DNA from: Cyclobacteriaceae bacterium
Lineage (GTDB): Bacteria; Bacteroidota; Bacteroidia; Cytophagales; Cyclobacteriaceae
Assembly (NCBI GenBank): GCA_024644875.1
Contig: JAHEGY010000018.1
Location: 1 to 54,543, forward strand
Length of the DNA stretch: 54,543 nt
Direction: 5' to 3'
The position numbers and the translations under genes are program-made. Shown here piece by piece: positions 4,205 through 32,943 of this stretch. The notes under the pieces are model-generated. The model worked only from the letters and a program-made list of their open reading frames with translations. It was not told where the DNA came from and ran no database searches. The first letter of the stretch is position 1, and the number at the start of each line of letters is the position of its first letter.

Positions 4205-6676
4205 TTAATTTGATTCTAAATTTTCCTCTTCGATCTTCTCTATTTTCTCAACACTGCTGATTTCATCATTCTCATTTAATTTGATCAGCCTTACTCCCTG
4301 AGTGGCCCTGCCCATTACGCGTAATGTATCAACAGCCATTCTGATTGTGATGCCTGATTTATTAATAATCATCAGGTCATCCGTGTCGACCACTACTTTT
4401 AAAGCAACAAGCTTGCCAGTTTTTTCTGTTATATTGATGGTTTTAACTCCTTTGCCGCCTCTGCGGGTAATTCTATAATCATCAATCTGGCTCCTTTTAC
4501 CATATCCTTTTTCAGAAACCACCAATAAATTGGCATCCGACCTGGTTATACAGACCATATCAACCACACGGTCTTTTTCACCCTCAAGGGTAACCCCCCT
4601 CACTCCCGCTGCATTCCTTCCCATTGCCCGGATATCAGTTTCATGGAAATGTATAACCTTGCCTGATCGTTTTCCAATAACAATGTGATTATCACCATTG
4701 GTCAGTGCTGCATTCAATAAACGGTCGCCTTCATTGATGGTAATCGCATTTATGCCATTCTGGCGTGGCCTTGAATACGCTTCAAGTAATGTCTTTTTAA
4801 TGGTACCTTTCACGGTACACATCATTATATAATTATTGTTTATATAATCCTGATCCTGAAGGTTATGTACATTAAGAACAGCTCTTACTTTGTCATTCGG
4901 ATCAATATTGATCAGATTTTGAATGGCTCGACCTTTGGATGTTTTGACACCTTCGGGTATCTGATAAACCTTTTTCCAGAATACCTTGCCGAATTCTGTA
5001 AATATCAGTAGATAATCATGGGCATTCGCGATGAAAAGATGTTCGGTAAAATCATCATCTTTTGTGATAACTCCCTTGGAACCAACTCCTCCCCGGCCCT
5101 GTGTTCTGTATTCTGAAGATTGGGTTCGCTTAATATACCCCTGATGAGAAATGGTAATTACCATCTCTTCGTTAGGGATCATATCTTCTATGCCAATTTC
5201 ATCTGAATCATGCACTATATCAGTCCTTCTCTCATCTCCATACCTTTCTTTCAGTGCAATCAATTCATCCTTTATAATGCTCATCCTCAAGACCTTATCA
5301 TCAAGAATGGTTTGAAGCTTTTTAATGAGCTCCTGGAGTTCCTTATATTCTTCTTCTATTTTTTCGCGCTCAAGGCCTGTCAGTCTTTGAAGACGCATGT
5401 CCAGGATCGCTTTTGCCTGCATCTCAGAAAGTTTGAACCGTTCCATTAAACCTAACCTGGCAGTTTCAGGATCCCTTGATTTGCGAATGAGATCGATGAC
5501 TTCATCAATATTGTCCAGTGCTATGATATAACCCTCAAGAATGTGCGCGCGCCGTTCTGCTTCTTCCAGCTCAAATTGCGTTCTTCTGACCAATACGTCG
5601 TGTCTATGGCTTACATACCTGGATATCAAATCTTTAAGATTCAATATTTGAGGCCTTCCTTTAACTAAGGCAACATTGTTTACCCCGAAAGATGATTGCA
5701 GTTGAGTATGCTTGAAAAGATGATTCAGGACGATGTTAGGAATTGCATCACGTTTGATATCGTATACTATTCTCAACCCGTCTCTGTCAGATTCGTCACG
5801 TATATCAGAAATGCCCTCCAGTCTTTTCTCGTTAACAAGTGCAGCAGTTTTTTCTATCATTGCTGCCTTATTGACCTGATACGGAATTTCCGTAACTATG
5901 ATCTGTTCCTTTCCTGATTTACTAGTAATAATTTCGGTTTTGGCCCTGACAACCACTCTGCCTCTTCCTGTTTCAAAAGCGGATTTTACACCTTGATAGC
6001 CATAAATGATACCACCTGTTGGGAAATCAGGTCCCTTGACATATTGCATCAATTCATCAATCTGGATATCATTGTTGTCAATAAATGCAACAATGCCGTC
6101 TACGACTTCTGAAAGATTATGAGGTGGCATATTTGTAGCCATGCCAACTGCAATTCCCGAAGCCCCGTTTACAAGAAGATTCGGGAGCTTTGCCGGAAGA
6201 ACCGTTGGCTCCTGTAATGAATCATCGAAATTCGGTTGAAAATCAACTGTATTTTTGTTGATATCATTCAGCATTTCCTCTGCAATTCGCCTGAGTCTTG
6301 CTTCAGTATATCGCATGGCTGCTGGTGAATCACCGTCTATTGATCCGTAATTTCCCTGCCCATCTACCAAAGGATAGCGCAGAGACCATTCCTGTGCCAT
6401 TCGGACCATCGTATCATAAACGGAAGAATCTCCATGAGGGTGGTATTTACCCAACACCTCTCCTACTATTCTGGCTGATTTTTTATATGGCCTGTTGTAG
6501 GTAACTCCCAACTCAAGCATTCCATAAAGCACTCTTCTATGGACCGGCTTCAATCCATCCCGTACATCCGGCAGTGCCCTGGAAACTATTACTGACATTG
6601 AATAATCTATGTAGGCACCCCGCATCTCCTCCTCAATGTTGATAGGAATAATGTTTTCGTTCGCTCCTTCTGCCAT
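4205..6676 (-). CDS. gyrA: DNA gyrase subunit A
   Basis: GyrA makes and rejoins the double-strand break in the gyrase A2B2 complex that introduces negative supercoils. The 823 residues have the normal layout: an N-terminal winged-helix/tower cleavage domain, then a six-bladed C-terminal beta-pinwheel. The catalytic Tyr is Y123 in [10 protein letters not shown]. The quinolone pocket [10 protein letters not shown] carries S84 and D88, matching the sensitive Ser83 and Asp87 of E. coli. The first-blade GyrA box is degenerate (QGRGGVG rather than QRRGGKG), and a closer copy (TRRGGKG) occurs at 737-743. The tail is acidic ([14 protein letters not shown]). The start [18 protein letters not shown] fits the family. 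A TAnnTTTG box lies 33 bp upstream. The neighbouring parC at 27815 is the second type IIA A subunit in the window, with a distinct tail. Confidence 0.97.
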
Positions 6677-26657: not shown

Positions 26658-27764
26658 TTATTGTTCAATACTTTTTGGTTTTAAAGTAGGAAGTATAGGC
26701 CTAGATTCATACTCCCTCCTAATTCTCTGCAAATATGCAATATAATTCTCAAGTTTCTGCATTTCTGACAGCGCATAAGGATCTCCCTGGTCATATTCAA
26801 GCACTTTACTGTAAGCGTTATAGGCATTATACACTTGTTCCTTGGCCCTATGTGCCTTTCCCAAAATATAATAAGCATCATTCAGCTGGTCATCAATTTC
26901 AAGGGCTCTTTCTGCAAAATAAATAGCAGAATCATAATCAAATGTATCCAGATACACATCAGCAAGGTTTAGAAATGGTCTGTAACCAGGATTATCCTCA
27001 TCAATCAATCTGAAAGATATCTCCTTTGAGTCCTTATACATTTCCTTCATATTGTAGATTTTAGCCAGCGCATTTTTCAGGTCGCTATTATCAGGTTCTT
27101 TTTGAAGGTATTCATTAACCATCCCATAGGCCTCATCGGCTTTATTTGAGGACATCAAAAGATCAGAGTAAAGAATGATCCCGTTCATTTCCTCATATCC
27201 ACCATTCAGGGCTTTTTCGATATATTGATAAGCGTTTACAGTATCTTTGAATTTATAATAATACAATCCCTTTAAATAAGAAAATTTTGGTTCTCCTTCA
27301 TTTTTATCGATACAATAGTTTATATGGTCTATCGCTTTGAGAAAATCTCTATTTTCAGCATATAGGTAAGCGAGTTGTTCATTTAAATCGATTGATTCAA
27401 TTTCGTCATAATTATACAAGTATTCAGCTGCTTCAAGTGCCTGGTTCACACTATCCAATTGTAAATTTAACTGGATTTCCAATATCCGGCACCTTGTGTT
27501 CTTCTCTGAATTGCTTATTAAGGATAAAGTCTGGTATGAACTATCAAAATCCTGGAGTTCATAAAGCATTTCTGCCTTTTTAAGTAATAATTCACTGGAG
27601 TAGGGTTCACTTTCGAGTAGTCCATTAATGTAGGCCAGGGATTCATTAGAATTGAGAATCTTAGTTCCCTTATCTATTATTATTGCCTTATTGTCATCTG
27701 ATGAACCACAGCCTGCCAATCCACACAAATAAACTAATAATAATATATAGAGAGATGTCTTCAT
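26658..27764 (-). CDS. Tetratricopeptide-repeat lipoprotein
   Basis: A 368-residue lipoprotein. The signal and lipobox are MKTSLYILLLVYLCGLAGCG, with lipidation predicted at Cys19. The rest is an array of TPR helix pairs, for example LLKKAEMLYELQDFDSSYQT near 60, FSYLKGLYYYKFKDTVNAYQ near 155, LADVYLDTFDYDSAIYFAERA near 275 and AYYILGKAHRAKEQVYNAYN near 300. It probably scaffolds proteins at the periplasmic face of a membrane. Its stop abuts the thrS ATG, so it may be the first gene of the thrS-infC-rpmI-rplT transcript. A TATCTTTG box lies only 7 bp before its ATG. Confidence 0.85.
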   Translation of the reverse strand: MKTSLYILLLVYLCGLAGCGSSDDNKAIIIDKGTKILNSNESLAYINGLLESEPYSSELLLKKAEMLYELQDFDSSYQTLSLISNSEKNTRCRILEIQLNLQLDSVNQALEAAEYLYNYDEIESIDLNEQLAYLYAENRDFLKAIDHINYCIDKNEGEPKFSYLKGLYYYKFKDTVNAYQYIEKALNGGYEEMNGIILYSDLLMSSNKADEAYGMVNEYLQKEPDNSDLKNALAKIYNMKEMYKDSKEISFRLIDEDNPGYRPFLNLADVYLDTFDYDSAIYFAERALEIDDQLNDAYYILGKAHRAKEQVYNAYNAYSKVLEYDQGDPYALSEMQKLENYIAYLQRIRREYESRPILPTLKPKSIEQ

Positions 27765-27814: not shown

Positions 27815-30800
27815 TTAATCTCCAAATAAATCAAGTTGATCATCGTTCTTGCGGGGTTGATCGAAATTAAGATCTATCGTACTTCCTACTTCAAATATTT
27901 CATCTTCAGAACCTTTTTCCTGATCTACTGAAGTATCAGTATTTTTATCTTCTTTGGCAATGGATGGATCATCTACTTCTGGTGAAGGTGTCTGATTTTT
28001 AACTTTCTTTCTTTTTTGAACAGATTTGATTTTTTCAACTTTCTGGTCCACTTCTATATCTGCTGATCCAGATCCCTTATTTTCTAATTCCCGGGCTGCC
28101 TCAGTAACTTTTGAATTCTGTTCATTATTTTCAGGTTTTGCAGCAACTTTATTATCAATTGATCCTGATTGCTCTATTTCCAACTTTGCATCAACTTCTA
28201 TAACTGATGTCTCGGAAAACCTCATTTCTGGTTTATGATCAACTTCAACTTTCTTTGATCCGGATTCCTTAACGGCCGGTCCTGTCTTTTCTTTCTTCTG
28301 GATAGCTTGGTCATCTTTTCTCGCCGGATCTGATTTAGATGGTTTTCTTTTATTGTCAATTGATGATTGAACGGGGTCTTCCTCAAAATCATCATTTAAA
28401 TCCTTTGACACTACTTTACTTTCTGCTTTTGAAGATCTACTCCCTTCTTTTCCTTGCCGGGAGGATACATTCCCTTCTTTTTTTCTAATGCGTTCCGATT
28501 TGTTAGACTTAGCCGCTTTGGGTGCAGACTTAGCTTCCTTAACCTCTTCCTGTTTTAATTCTTTACCATTAAGCAGTTCTACCTTCCTGATCTTATTATT
28601 GGATAGTTTATTTCCTATCGCTTTCCATCCCTTTGTTTCAATCAATTCATCAAGAAGAAGCTCATCGGTCTTTTTGGCATCTTTTCGTTTTACACTGTAA
28701 TGCACCTTGATTTTCTGATTCCTAGTATTTGTGGCTACCTCGAGTCTACTGCCTTTTTCCTCTGATATGAAGTTGAATTTCTTCCCGGTCGATAAGGTTT
28801 CTATTACAAACCGTTTAATATAGAATGTTTTATTTCCACCATGATAGTAAACAGCAGATATGATATCATTTGGTTCGAATTTGTCTATAAGAATGACTTT
28901 CTCAGGTTCGTAGCGGTTGGTTAGATCAAAGCTGGTCAGGGTATATGAACCATCTTTAGTCAAAACAATGATCTGGTCTTCGGGTTTAAAATTACCAAGA
29001 TATTTACCCCGGTTGTCCCTGTTGAGTCTTCCAACGGTTGGGTCATACCAGATATCAAGACCTCCTAAAGTGGAAATACCTGCCGTTTTGAGTTGAATTT
29101 TACGTACCGGATACTTCGTTAAAGTATTACCCTGTGATCCTCTTCCTTTAATTTCAATGGAAGTAAAATCAAATTCAAAGATCTTTTTCCTGGCTTTGCT
29201 GCCTGATGTAAGATTTACAGTTATGCTTTCAGCTTCACCATTGGGATTGGCAGTAAAATATAACACTTTAGAACCCTTATGTCCCTTAGTGAGATCATAT
29301 TCTTTATCCCGGGTAACACCCATAACCTGGAAACGCTTTACCATAGATTTACCGGTCTTTCCATCAAGGTATACCATATTGTAAACCATTCGTTCATCGT
29401 TTTTATTGAAAACAGCTGTATGCAGGATATCCTTACCCATAAATACCTTTTCTGCAATCCTTGAAACTTTAAACTTACCATCTTTTCTGAAAGCGATAAC
29501 GTCATCAAGATCAGAACATTCAATTATAAATTCGTCTTTTTTAAGCCCGTATCCAATAAAGCCATCTGACCTGTTTACAAAAAGTTTTTGATTGTTCGCG
29601 GCTACCACGGTTGCAGCAATTGAATCGAAATTCTTGATCTCTGTTTTACGATCTTTGTCCTTGCCGTACTTTTCTTTCAAATTTTTAAAATAGTCTACAG
29701 CATAATCCACCAGGTTTTTAAGATTGAATTCTACCTTACTGAGATCATCTTCAAGTTTCTTCAGACTTTCATCAGCTTTTAAGGAATCATATTTAGATAT
29801 CCGTTTAATTTTTATTTCTGTGAGACGGACAATATCTTCTTCCGTAATTTCCCTGTAGAACTGTTTTTTATAAGGTTCCAGTCCCTTATCAATTGTTTTT
29901 ATGACTGCTTCCCAGGTTTCACATTCTTCAATATCCCGGTAAATCCGGTTTTCAATAAAGATCTTCTCTAAAGAAGAAAACAATATTTTCTCGAGAAGTT
30001 CAGCCCGCTTTATTTCAAGTTCCCGTTTTAACAGTTGCAAGGTTTGATCGGTATTGATCTTAATGATCTGGTGAACATCCATGAAATGGGGTTTTTCATC
30101 CAGAATTATACATGCATTTGGGGATATAGATACCTCACAATCGGTAAAAGCATATAAAGCGTCAATGGTTATATGCGGGGATTGACCAGGAGCAAGATAA
30201 ATCAGAACTTCTATATCTTTGGCCGTGTTGTCAACTACCTTTTTGATCTTGATTTTCCCTTTTTCACTCGCTTTTATAATGGAATCTATTAAACTTGTTG
30301 TTGTGATCCCAAAAGGTATATCCTTAATAATCAGTGTTTTATTATCCAGCTCCTCGATTCGAGCCCTTACCCTGACCTTTCCACCCCGCAATCCTTTGTT
30401 ATATTCACTGAAGTCAGCCATTCCGCCTGTCGGAAAATCAGGAAAAAGCTGAATCTTTTTATTATTCAGAATATTAATAGAGGCATCTATTAATTCATTG
30501 AAGTTGTGTGGCAATATCTTTGTTGACAAACCTACAGCAATCCCTTCCACTCCCTGAGCAAGAAGCATTGGAAATTTAACAGGCAGGGTTATCGGCTCCT
30601 TCTTTCTCCCATCATAAGATAATTGCCATTCGGTAGTTTGGGCATTGTATACCACCTCGAGGGCAAACTTCGATAGCCGTGCTTCTATATATCTAGCAGC
30701 TGCCGCTTTATCACCCGTTCTTATATCACCCCAGTTACCCTGAGTATCGATGAGTAGGTCTTTTTGGCCAAGACCTACTATTGCATCGGAGATGGAGGCA

Positions 30801-31066
30801 TCGCCATGGGGATGATACTGCATTGTATTTCCGATAATATTAGCTACTTTATTATAGCGGCCATCATCCATCTCCTTCATGGCGTGGAGAATTCTTCTCT
30901 GGACAGGTTTGAAACCATCCTGTAAGGCTGGAACAGCTCTTTCGAGAATTACATAGGAGGCATAATCCAGAAACCAGTTTTCATACATACCGGAAACTGG
31001 CAATATATCATGGATCTTTTCATTTTCGGGTAGTTTCTCAAATACGTTGTTGTTGTCTTCTCCCAT
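27815..31066 (-). CDS. parC: DNA topoisomerase IV subunit A
   Basis: ParC is the cleavage subunit of topoisomerase IV, which unlinks sister chromosomes. The 1083-residue protein has the normal N-terminal cleavage domain with YHPHGDASISD (85-95) and catalytic Tyr Y126 in AAAARYIEARL, a tower and coiled-coil region, and a degenerate beta-propeller. From about residue 850 a long, charged, low-complexity tail begins, rich in Lys, Glu, Ser and Asp. It holds imperfect repeats such as VEVDHKPE, IEVDAKLE and IEVDQKVE. The protein ends in QLDLFGD (1077-1083), an exact match to the sliding-clamp-binding consensus QL(S/D)LF. It starts 2 bp after parE, which tells ParC from GyrA. The tail makes it much longer than the 750-900 residues usual for the family. 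Confidence 0.95.
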   Translation of the reverse strand: MGEDNNNVFEKLPENEKIHDILPVSGMYENWFLDYASYVILERAVPALQDGFKPVQRRILHAMKEMDDGRYNKVANIIGNTMQYHPHGDASISDAIVGLGQKDLLIDTQGNWGDIRTGDKAAAARYIEARLSKFALEVVYNAQTTEWQLSYDGRKKEPITLPVKFPMLLAQGVEGIAVGLSTKILPHNFNELIDASINILNNKKIQLFPDFPTGGMADFSEYNKGLRGGKVRVRARIEELDNKTLIIKDIPFGITTTSLIDSIIKASEKGKIKIKKVVDNTAKDIEVLIYLAPGQSPHITIDALYAFTDCEVSISPNACIILDEKPHFMDVHQIIKINTDQTLQLLKRELEIKRAELLEKILFSSLEKIFIENRIYRDIEECETWEAVIKTIDKGLEPYKKQFYREITEEDIVRLTEIKIKRISKYDSLKADESLKKLEDDLSKVEFNLKNLVDYAVDYFKNLKEKYGKDKDRKTEIKNFDSIAATVVAANNQKLFVNRSDGFIGYGLKKDEFIIECSDLDDVIAFRKDGKFKVSRIAEKVFMGKDILHTAVFNKNDERMVYNMVYLDGKTGKSMVKRFQVMGVTRDKEYDLTKGHKGSKVLYFTANPNGEAESITVNLTSGSKARKKIFEFDFTSIEIKGRGSQGNTLTKYPVRKIQLKTAGISTLGGLDIWYDPTVGRLNRDNRGKYLGNFKPEDQIIVLTKDGSYTLTSFDLTNRYEPEKVILIDKFEPNDIISAVYYHGGNKTFYIKRFVIETLSTGKKFNFISEEKGSRLEVATNTRNQKIKVHYSVKRKDAKKTDELLLDELIETKGWKAIGNKLSNNKIRKVELLNGKELKQEEVKEAKSAPKAAKSNKSERIRKKEGNVSSRQGKEGSRSSKAESKVVSKDLNDDFEEDPVQSSIDNKRKPSKSDPARKDDQAIQKKEKTGPAVKESGSKKVEVDHKPEMRFSETSVIEVDAKLEIEQSGSIDNKVAAKPENNEQNSKVTEAARELENKGSGSADIEVDQKVEKIKSVQKRKKVKNQTPSPEVDDPSIAKEDKNTDTSVDQEKGSEDEIFEVGSTIDLNFDQPRKNDDQLDLFGD

Positions 31067-31068
31067 CG

Positions 31069-32943
31069 CTATATTACTTCCTCTAAAATCAGATCTTTTT
31101 CAATTTTCAAGTTATCGATAATAAAATTCTGTCGATCCGGTGTGTTTTTCCCCATATAAAATTTCAAGAGATTTTTGATGCTTGTGTCTTTATGCAAAAT
31201 GACCGGTTCAAGCCTGATATTCTCCCCTATAAAACCTCCGAATTCATCTGGCGATATCTCGCCCAGACCTTTAAATCGGGTTATTTCAGGTTTAGAGCCT
31301 AACTTTTCCATAGCCTGCTGCTTTTCCTCTTCATTATAACAGTAATAAGTTTCTTTTTTATTTCTTACCCTGAAGAGTGGTGTTTCCAGAATATAAACAT
31401 GACTGTTCCTGATCAAGTCCGGGAAAAACTGCAGGAAAAAGGTTAACAAAAGTAACCTGATGTGCATGCCATCAACATCAGCATCTGTGGCAATAACTAT
31501 TTTGCTGTAACGAAGCCCTTCTATTCCGTCCTCAATGTTTAAAGCATGCTGCAGTAAATTGAATTCTTCATTTTCATAAACGACTTTCTTAGTTAGTCCG
31601 AACGAATTCAGAGGCTTTCCCCTTAAGCTGAATACAGCCTGGATTTGAACATTTCTTGATTTGGTTATAGACCCGCTTGCCGAATCACCTTCGGTTATAA
31701 AGATCATCGTTTCATTTTTGAGATCACTTTTCTGATCATCCAGGTGGATCCTGCAATCTCGAAGTTTTTTATTATGCAGATTTGCCTTTTTTGCTCTTTC
31801 ATTGGCCAGCTTCTTAATACCAGCAATATCCTTTCTCTCCCTTTCAGACTGAAGAATCCGTTTATAAAGAGCATCCGATACCTCCTGGTGTTTGTGAAGA
31901 TAATTATCAAGTTCTTTCTTAATAAAATCAATCACAAAAGTCCTCATAGTGGGTCCACCCGGAAACAGATTAATAGATCCCAGTTTTGTTTTTGTCTGAG
32001 ATTCGAATACAGGTTCTATTACTCTTACGGATATTGCACCCACAATACTGGCTCTGATATCCGATGCATCGAAATCCTTTTTAAAATAATCCCGGATTGT
32101 TTTTACTATAGCCTCACGAAACGCACTCAAATGGGTGCCTCCCTGTGTTGTAAACTGACCATTAACAAATGAATAATATTCTTCCCCGTACAGGTTATTA
32201 TGTGATAGTGCTATTTCAATATCTTGACCTTTAAGGTGAACGGGGGGATAACGTAAGCTTTCTGTATCCGTTTTATTATTGATCAGATCAAGAAGTCCAT
32301 TCTCAGAGTGAAATTTAACGCCGTTAAAGTTTATGGTTAATCCGGCATTCAGGTAAGCGTAATTCCAGATTTGATTTTCCAGATATTCCGGAATAAAGTG
32401 ATAATTCTTAAACACATCAGGATCAGGTTCAAACACAATTAATGTTCCATTACGCTGACTTGCCTTCTTGTTTTTAAGTTCCTTCAACAAATTGCCTCTG
32501 CTGAATTCACCAGATGTTGTCTTGCCATCCCGGAAGGATTGAACCCTGAAATACGCGGACAGGGCATTCACAGCCTTTGTCCCAACACCGTTCAGCCCAA
32601 CTGATTTCTGAAAAGCCTGCGTATCATATTTTCCACCAGTGTTGATCTTTGACACGCAATCAATTACTTTTCCCAATGGTATTCCTCTTCCATAATCCCT
32701 GACTTCCACCATATGGTTGCCAACTTTTACGTCAATAGTTTTGCCATAACCCATCACATGCTCATCAATGGAATTATCGATTACTTCCTTTACAAGAACA
32801 TAAATACCATCATCCTGCGCAGATCCATCCCCGAGTTTTCCGATATACATGCCCGGTCGCATTCTGATATGCTCTTTCCAATCAAGGGATTTTATCGTAC
32901 TTTCATCATAAATGAACTGTTCGCCATTTGATTTTTTATCCAT
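31069..32943 (-). CDS. parE: DNA topoisomerase IV subunit B
   Basis: A 624-residue ATPase subunit of topoisomerase IV. The GHKL ATPase domain shows the N-box [20 protein letters not shown], the G1 box [11 protein letters not shown] and the [14 protein letters not shown] lid. The transducer domain follows ([17 protein letters not shown]), then the TOPRIM domain with [12 protein letters not shown] and the Asp pair [13 protein letters not shown]. The C-terminal part ends [16 protein letters not shown]. It is complete and comes just before parC. The 215-bp upstream region holds a near match to TAnnTTTG but no clear full promoter. Confidence 0.96.

Follow-up and report, generated by a model that had tools for sequence, protein, structure and literature searches.

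A putative sliding-clamp-binding motif at the C terminus of topoisomerase IV subunit ParC in a Cyclobacteriaceae bacterium and its relatives

Does ParC, the A subunit of the sister-unlinking type IIA topoisomerase IV (topo IV), carry at the end of its tail a peptide that binds the sliding clamp, DnaN? The question is raised by the parC gene of a Cyclobacteriaceae bacterium (assembly GCA_024644875.1), which occupies positions 27815..31066 on the minus strand of a 54,543-nucleotide stretch of contig JAHEGY010000018.1, hereafter the window. The open frame of 1083 codons encodes a catalytic core, a C-terminal beta domain and a disordered tail ending in VGSTIDLNFDQPRKNDDQLDLFGD. The final seven residues are QLDLFGD, as stated in a preliminary description of this DNA and borne out by the open frame (codons 27818-27838, minus strand); they consist of the pentamer QLDLF (27824..27838, residues 1077-1081) and the two residues GD (27818..27823), followed by the stop codon (27815-27817). 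By sequence, QLDLF is a pentameric beta-clamp-binding motif (CBM), and the match to the published consensus, Q-phi-x-[L/M]-[F/L] or Q-phi-x-[L/M]-x-[F/L] (PMC11139829), is exact, in agreement with the same description. We put at about 0.78 the probability that the ParC tail ends in a genuine CBM that docks in the peptide pocket of DnaN and tethers this topoisomerase to clamps behind the replication fork.

Matches to Pfam PF00521 and to NCBIfam NF009397 (PRK12758) identify the protein as a ParC, the A subunit of a type IIA topoisomerase. The NF009397 score is 1393.8 bits (cut-off 780), and the classical ParC models score below their cut-offs (TIGR01062, parC_Gneg, 210.9 against 628.9 bits; TIGR01061, parC_Gpos, 194.8 against 813.25 bits), which indicates a ParC type different from that of Escherichia coli. 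Tyr126, which we take to be the active-site tyrosine, lies within AAARYIEARLS and is invariant across 67 aligned ParCs. The features expected of a ParC are all present, namely the type IIA A-subunit core, a ParE of its own, encoded directly upstream on the same strand (31069..32943, minus strand), and a separate GyrA (4205..6676, minus strand).

Relatives were sought in overlapping draws of 60 genomes from the same family (matches in 59), 49 from the order (47), 70 from the class (64) and 70 from the phylum (21). The ParC loci obtained come from 179 distinct genomes, and 175 of the proteins have a complete C terminus (four cut rows were dropped; one ParC of the sample has stops inside its frame); outside the phylum, the comparison covers only the E. 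coli ParC and three loci named as Calditrichota or Neomarinimicrobiota. As controls, twenty 20-kb stretches from genomes of these kinds supplied 267 stop-to-stop open reading frames (ORFs) of at least 150 codons. A canonical CBM lies within the last 12 residues of 98 of the 175 ParCs vs 1 of the 267 control ORFs, and a relaxed version, which admits any residue after the Gln and a wider hydrophobic choice, is found there in 123 ParCs; random shuffling of the last 60 residues yields 0.15% canonical and 1.4% relaxed matches. The difference between ParCs and control ORFs has a Fisher p of about 4e-48, a value that ignores shared ancestry, and the sole canonical control match, a GNAT-like protein by reading of its sequence, is probably a chance one. 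Sorted by family code, the ParCs fall into 69 families, of which 39 include a canonical motif at least once and 53 a relaxed one. Among the named relatives, which are the best 80 of 586 confirmed matches and include three duplicate genomes of the main sample, 48 carry the canonical and 58 the relaxed form (47/77 and 57/77 without the duplicates), and the bearers include species of Pedobacter, Mucilaginibacter, Hymenobacter, Cyclobacterium, Dyadobacter and Pontibacter. None of the 30 ParE C termini taken from these best 80 of 586 named loci matches either pattern, and the end of the ParE encoded in the window likewise has no motif.

Sequence counts overstate independence, and the phylogeny gives the fairer figure. 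In a FastTree phylogeny of 168 ParC cores, of which 122 come from proteins with the motif among their last 16 residues, its distribution takes 22 changes vs 32-45 with shuffled labels, and the state reconstructed at the root by parsimony is presence of the motif, whether the tree is rooted at its midpoint or on the f74 clade. QLGLF, with 30 sequences, is the form seen most often within the own family, and its five positions are encoded by 2, 5, 4, 6 and 2 different codons; this silent variation shows that the protein sequence is kept rather than the DNA. It had been proposed at the outset to ask whether QL(S/D)LF persists in tails whose linkers differ. This is largely the case across the sampled genomes of the class and in the four sampled f74 genomes, which belong to another class of the phylum; the wider modern CBM consensus, however, describes the ends better than QL(S/D)LF does, QLGLF being the most frequent form in the own family. 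Absence of the motif from close relatives had been named as an observation that would speak against it, and such absence is found in part: 20 of the 60 own-family ParCs have no motif in the last 12 residues.

The form of the motif also fits what the clamp pocket accepts. A relaxed motif lies within the last 14 residues of 124 ParCs, as a pentamer in 91 and as a hexamer in 33, and the pocket takes both the Q..LF and the Q..LxF form (PMC11139829). Of these 124 motifs, 101 have L, I or M at position 2, 109 have L at position 4, and 100 end in F and 20 in L; it is this interchange of pentamers and hexamers, together with the residue preferences, that suggests the fit. The six residues preceding the motif have a mean net of +1.5 acidic charges, acidic flanks being usual for CBMs (PMC11139829). 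In 42 of the 124, the window ParC included, one to eight residues follow the motif.

The paralogous GyrA serves as a natural control. In the window its C terminus is EEENLESN, which has no motif. The GyrA set comprises 130 rows, with 12 others dropped as cut, unreadable or second homologues, and a genome is scored as one in which ParC was not found if it gives no match to the ParC profile or, in some genomes, if the GyrA search gives mostly a single homologue. In ParC-bearing genomes the motif is absent from all 38 GyrAs (9 from the own family and 29 others), and in genomes of the phylum where this ParC was not found it is present in 36 of 92, distributed over six separate clades of the GyrA tree, whose parsimony root state is absence. 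For five genomes of the own class the missing ParC may reflect an assembly gap, and none of these five has a GyrA motif. In family f79 all 26 GyrAs carry the motif (DGQIDLF, GQIELF, QIDLDF and similar ends) with some silent codon variation, and the GyrAs of f88 (3/3) and f96 (4/4) match at least the relaxed pattern; families f75, f80 and f87 have a second A-subunit homologue, and none of their seven GyrAs has the motif. Where ParC was not found, the lone gyrase would presumably take over the unlinking of sisters, and the distribution fits a motif that follows this job and not the gene. Ends of the motif type were seen in the GyrAs of L314, L319, L322, L325, L337, L339-L347, L390 and L395-L408.

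The presumed partner was found by a family search in the same genome and aligned to the E. coli DnaN. Of the 12 residues listed for subsite I of the E. coli clamp (PMC11139829), nine are identical, namely R152, T172, G174, H175, R176, L177, P242, V247 and M362 (as M366), and two are replaced conservatively, L155 by Met and V360 by Leu; beyond subsite I, N320 is kept (as N321). By this alignment the peptide pocket is present, with a second half that is less conserved. Clamp clients encoded by this genome have motifs of these forms too. One DinB (L295) ends in SGSQLILDL, in which QLILDL is a hexameric motif at the very C terminus, and in the other DinB a QITLF stands some 50 residues before the end. 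A QQSLF at residue 930 of the DnaE frame, caught by the relaxed pattern only, lies at a position that we take to be near that of the internal motif of E. coli alpha. The DinB and DnaE motifs thus show that the ParC ends share the forms of known clients in this organism.

The setting of the motif is predicted to be flexible and accessible. From residue 835 onwards the window ParC has a tail of about 248 residues (27818..28564, minus strand, residues 835-1083) in which K, E, S and D abound, without secondary structure and with an AlphaFold2 predicted local distance difference test (pLDDT) score below 50 throughout; the tail of an Algoriphagus ParC likewise stays below 50 in its model. The preliminary description had given its length as roughly 230 residues. 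Its three imperfect repeats are found as described, VEVDHKPE at residue 940 (28226..28249), IEVDAKLE at residue 956 (28178..28201) and IEVDQKVE at residue 1004 (28034..28057), all on the minus strand; at the DNA level the tail holds only short two-copy matches. Measured beyond the aligned core, this tail of 238 residues is the longest of the 175 sampled (median 41), which makes its length, unlike the motif, peculiar to the window species. With a tail so exceptional and DNA repeats so weak, a function of the repeats was set aside, and they are regarded as spacer.

A second short element, VGSTIDLNF (27863..27889, minus strand, residues 1060-1068), precedes the motif in the window ParC and is of a GxTIELDF type that recurs in the tails. 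The pattern G.[TS][IVL][EDQN][LF] occurs within the last 40 residues of 52 of the 175 ParCs vs 0 of the 267 control ORFs, before or after the CBM, and stands at or near the end of many ParCs without a terminal QLxLF. GxTIELDF resembles LQLELDF, the most abundant hexameric peptide selected on the clamp by phage display (PMC11139829), with Thr replacing Gln. This element could act as a second, weak clamp site that lacks the Gln, or serve another partner; both AlphaFold2 models leave it without structure. Several tails hold more than one candidate clamp motif: in those of L047, L049, L052, L076 and the named L231-L233, L237 and L240, Q[AQT]xLF occurs internally once or twice, in many cases with Gly, Ala or Glu after it, and the C terminus is TIELEL- or TIDLDI-like; L047 has both QASLF and QQSLF in one tail. 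In ParCs of Pedobacter and Mucilaginibacter (L255, L261, L265, L267, L270 and others) a conserved K(I/V)DFEITNPDDIDIDDKGQLGLF, longer than the bare motif, lies ahead of the end and is perhaps a local form of the second element.

How would such a peptide act? Clamps remain for a while on newly made DNA after Okazaki fragments have been finished, above all on the lagging strand, so that binding to them would give topo IV an address on fresh sisters. Each ParC tail would dock weakly in the hydrophobic pocket of DnaN, and the ParC2E2 enzyme would have two such peptides on long flexible tails. Weak tethered binding could then concentrate the decatenase on the new sisters behind the fork, where precatenanes form, and the length and flexibility of the linker would leave the enzyme free to act, with strand passage unhindered. 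The direct basis for clamp tethering is the motif, its conservation, its disordered setting and the largely kept pocket; from these we infer binding and, at a further remove, positioning behind the fork and faster unlinking.

Several observations weigh against clamp tethering. No relaxed motif is found in the last 12 residues of 52 of the 175 ParCs, of which 11 have an internal Q..[LMIF][FLWM] match, 18 only a GxTIELDF-like element and 23 neither, and the relaxed pattern, being the looser one, also matches 7 of the 267 control ORFs. Among the GyrAs of genomes where this ParC was not found, 56 of 92 lack the motif. In DnaN, R246 of subsite I is replaced by Asn and Y323 by Phe, and the residues aligned with V344 and S346 are Asn and Ala; a second DnaE of the genome has only poor relaxed matches. 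The E. coli ParC ends in ...PRRASSGDSEE, which holds no CBM, and the E. coli topo IV is nevertheless described as trailing the fork (PMC7803763), so a clamp tether is not needed for such trailing. With 52 of the 175 lacking the terminal motif, the motif of ParC is, by its distribution on the tree, ancestral and common but not obligatory.

The ParCs without the terminal motif are varied. The GxTIELDF-like element is carried by 27 of the 52. Of the 20 in the own family, eight match Q..[LMIF][FLWM] at an internal position, which in two of them falls barely outside the 12-residue limit; the GxTIELDF-like element alone is found in 11, and the remaining one has neither. Of the ParCs with neither motif nor element, several still end in LF without the Gln. 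The ParCs of family f4 (L090, L091, L094) stop at the folded domain and have lost the tail, and the G033 ParC (L050) has a Lys/Arg-rich end in place of an acidic one with the motif. In a separate set of ParCs, L161, L162, L163, L192 and L193, the C-terminal domain is shortened, the profile matching over its first half only, and the ends still read SPDLFD, DPELF plus a few residues, DDALFGDEDE, QIKLEI or QMKMEI. As regards the neighbourhood, the gene directly downstream of parC (26658-27764, minus strand) encodes a tetratricopeptide repeat protein according to its Pfam TPR matches, with an N-terminal stretch, MKTSLYILLLVYLCGLAGCGSS, that resembles a lipoprotein signal.

The alternative that survives best accepts the binding and reverses its purpose: the motif could hold topo IV at the clamp to restrain it or to serve repair, through competition for the pocket or by curbing a dangerous cutting enzyme, rather than to promote unlinking behind the fork. 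All known CBMs share one pocket, so that any client competes with the polymerase (PMC11139829), and the E. coli topo IV is reported to be kept at a distance from the replisome (PMC7803763); both would suit restraint. The appearance of the GyrA motif only where this ParC was not found (36/92 vs 0/38) fits a need for unlinking instead of restraint, and this alternative is regarded as unlikely. It is far less probable that the tail binds another replisome partner, such as the clamp loader DnaX/tau, whose site on Pol III alpha lies beside the C-terminal CBM of alpha: the clamp is favoured by the interchange of pentamers and hexamers under its consensus, by the occurrence of such forms in DinB and DnaE, and by a DnaN whose pocket is largely retained.

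No better odds are given to a role in self-regulation, in which the tail would act like the acidic GyrA tails that modulate DNA wrapping and would fold back onto the ParC core. The tail is acidic and has conserved short elements beside the DNA-binding beta domain, and many GyrA tails of the phylum are acidic too. The Gln motif does not depend on such a role, which the linker may still have. In both AlphaFold2 models the tail has low confidence over its full length and no secondary structure; intramolecular docking was rejected on these models, although models of this kind often miss weak contacts.

A tail like that of the single-stranded DNA-binding protein (SSB), acidic and ending in hydrophobic residues through which SSB partners are recruited, has marginally lower odds again. 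Many ParCs do have acidic residues ahead of the final Leu-Phe. The tip of SSB needs a free end, with the hydrophobic residues at the very C terminus, and to our knowledge neither the Gln nor its spacing is an SSB feature. An SSB-type tip was rejected, as the motif is followed by further residues in 42 of the 124 ParCs, by GD in the case of the window. Finally, a chance match in a low-complexity tail, against which the preliminary description had rightly cautioned because five-residue motifs do arise by chance (as in 1/267 control ORFs), has a negligible probability and is ruled out by the control ORFs, the shuffles, the tree and the motif-free ends of ParE and, in ParC-bearing genomes, of GyrA.

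Proteins with a CBM are a known kind, and among the closest likenesses to the peptide described here is E. coli Pol II (...TGQLGLF), which also has a pentameric CBM at its very C terminus, in the form that is commonest among the own-family ParCs; its C-terminal peptide binds the clamp at 1.7 uM. Pol II is a polymerase, whereas the client proposed here is a type IIA topoisomerase. The same difference applies to the replicative polymerase subunit that ends in a hexameric CBM followed by one acidic residue, comparable to the hexamers of 33 ParCs. A DNA-processing enzyme other than a polymerase is linked to the clamp by a CBM in E. coli RecBCD (QVEMEF; PMC13254535), where the motif lies in RecB, the nuclease-helicase subunit. 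In E. coli, topo IV acting with MukB or trailing SeqA likewise places a ParC decatenase on newly replicated DNA (PMC3950513, PMC7803763), but there the SMC (structural maintenance of chromosomes) complex MukBEF recruits it via the ParC C-terminal domain, without a CBM.

A type IIA topoisomerase as a clamp client was not found in print within the open-access literature, the scope of the search, subscription papers and preprints lying outside it; in that literature no clamp motif of ParC or GyrA has been recognised. The main text of the clamp review PMC11139829 contains no occurrence of topoisomerase, ParC or gyrase, and that of PMC13254535 does not mention topoisomerase or ParC. A predicted interactome (PMC10863985) pairs DnaN with PolA and, in the portions concerned, has ParC only within ParC2E2. 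Topo IV is mentioned in PMC11253446 and PMC13220808, with no link to a clamp motif in the relevant passages. The preliminary description, whose author knew of no account of a clamp-tethered topo IV, is in keeping with this result.

A wider proposal is held tentatively, at somewhat less than even odds: clamp tethering may be a general strategy of the Bacteroidota that evolved repeatedly, ancestral on ParC and gained several times on a lone GyrA, with the clamp marking new DNA. Since each topo IV has two tails, and two or three candidate motifs per tail occur in some lineages, the heterotetramer could hold clamps on both sisters and in this way pick inter-sister crossings. Even for E. coli there is debate over the way in which topo IV locates precatenanes behind the fork, MukBEF and SeqA having been offered as answers (PMC7803763). 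If clamp tethering is true, a clamp peptide on ParC or GyrA would be a direct and simple answer to the targeting of topo IV in these bacteria, type IIA topoisomerases would join the clients of the sliding clamp as a new kind of enzyme, and two drug targets would be physically linked.
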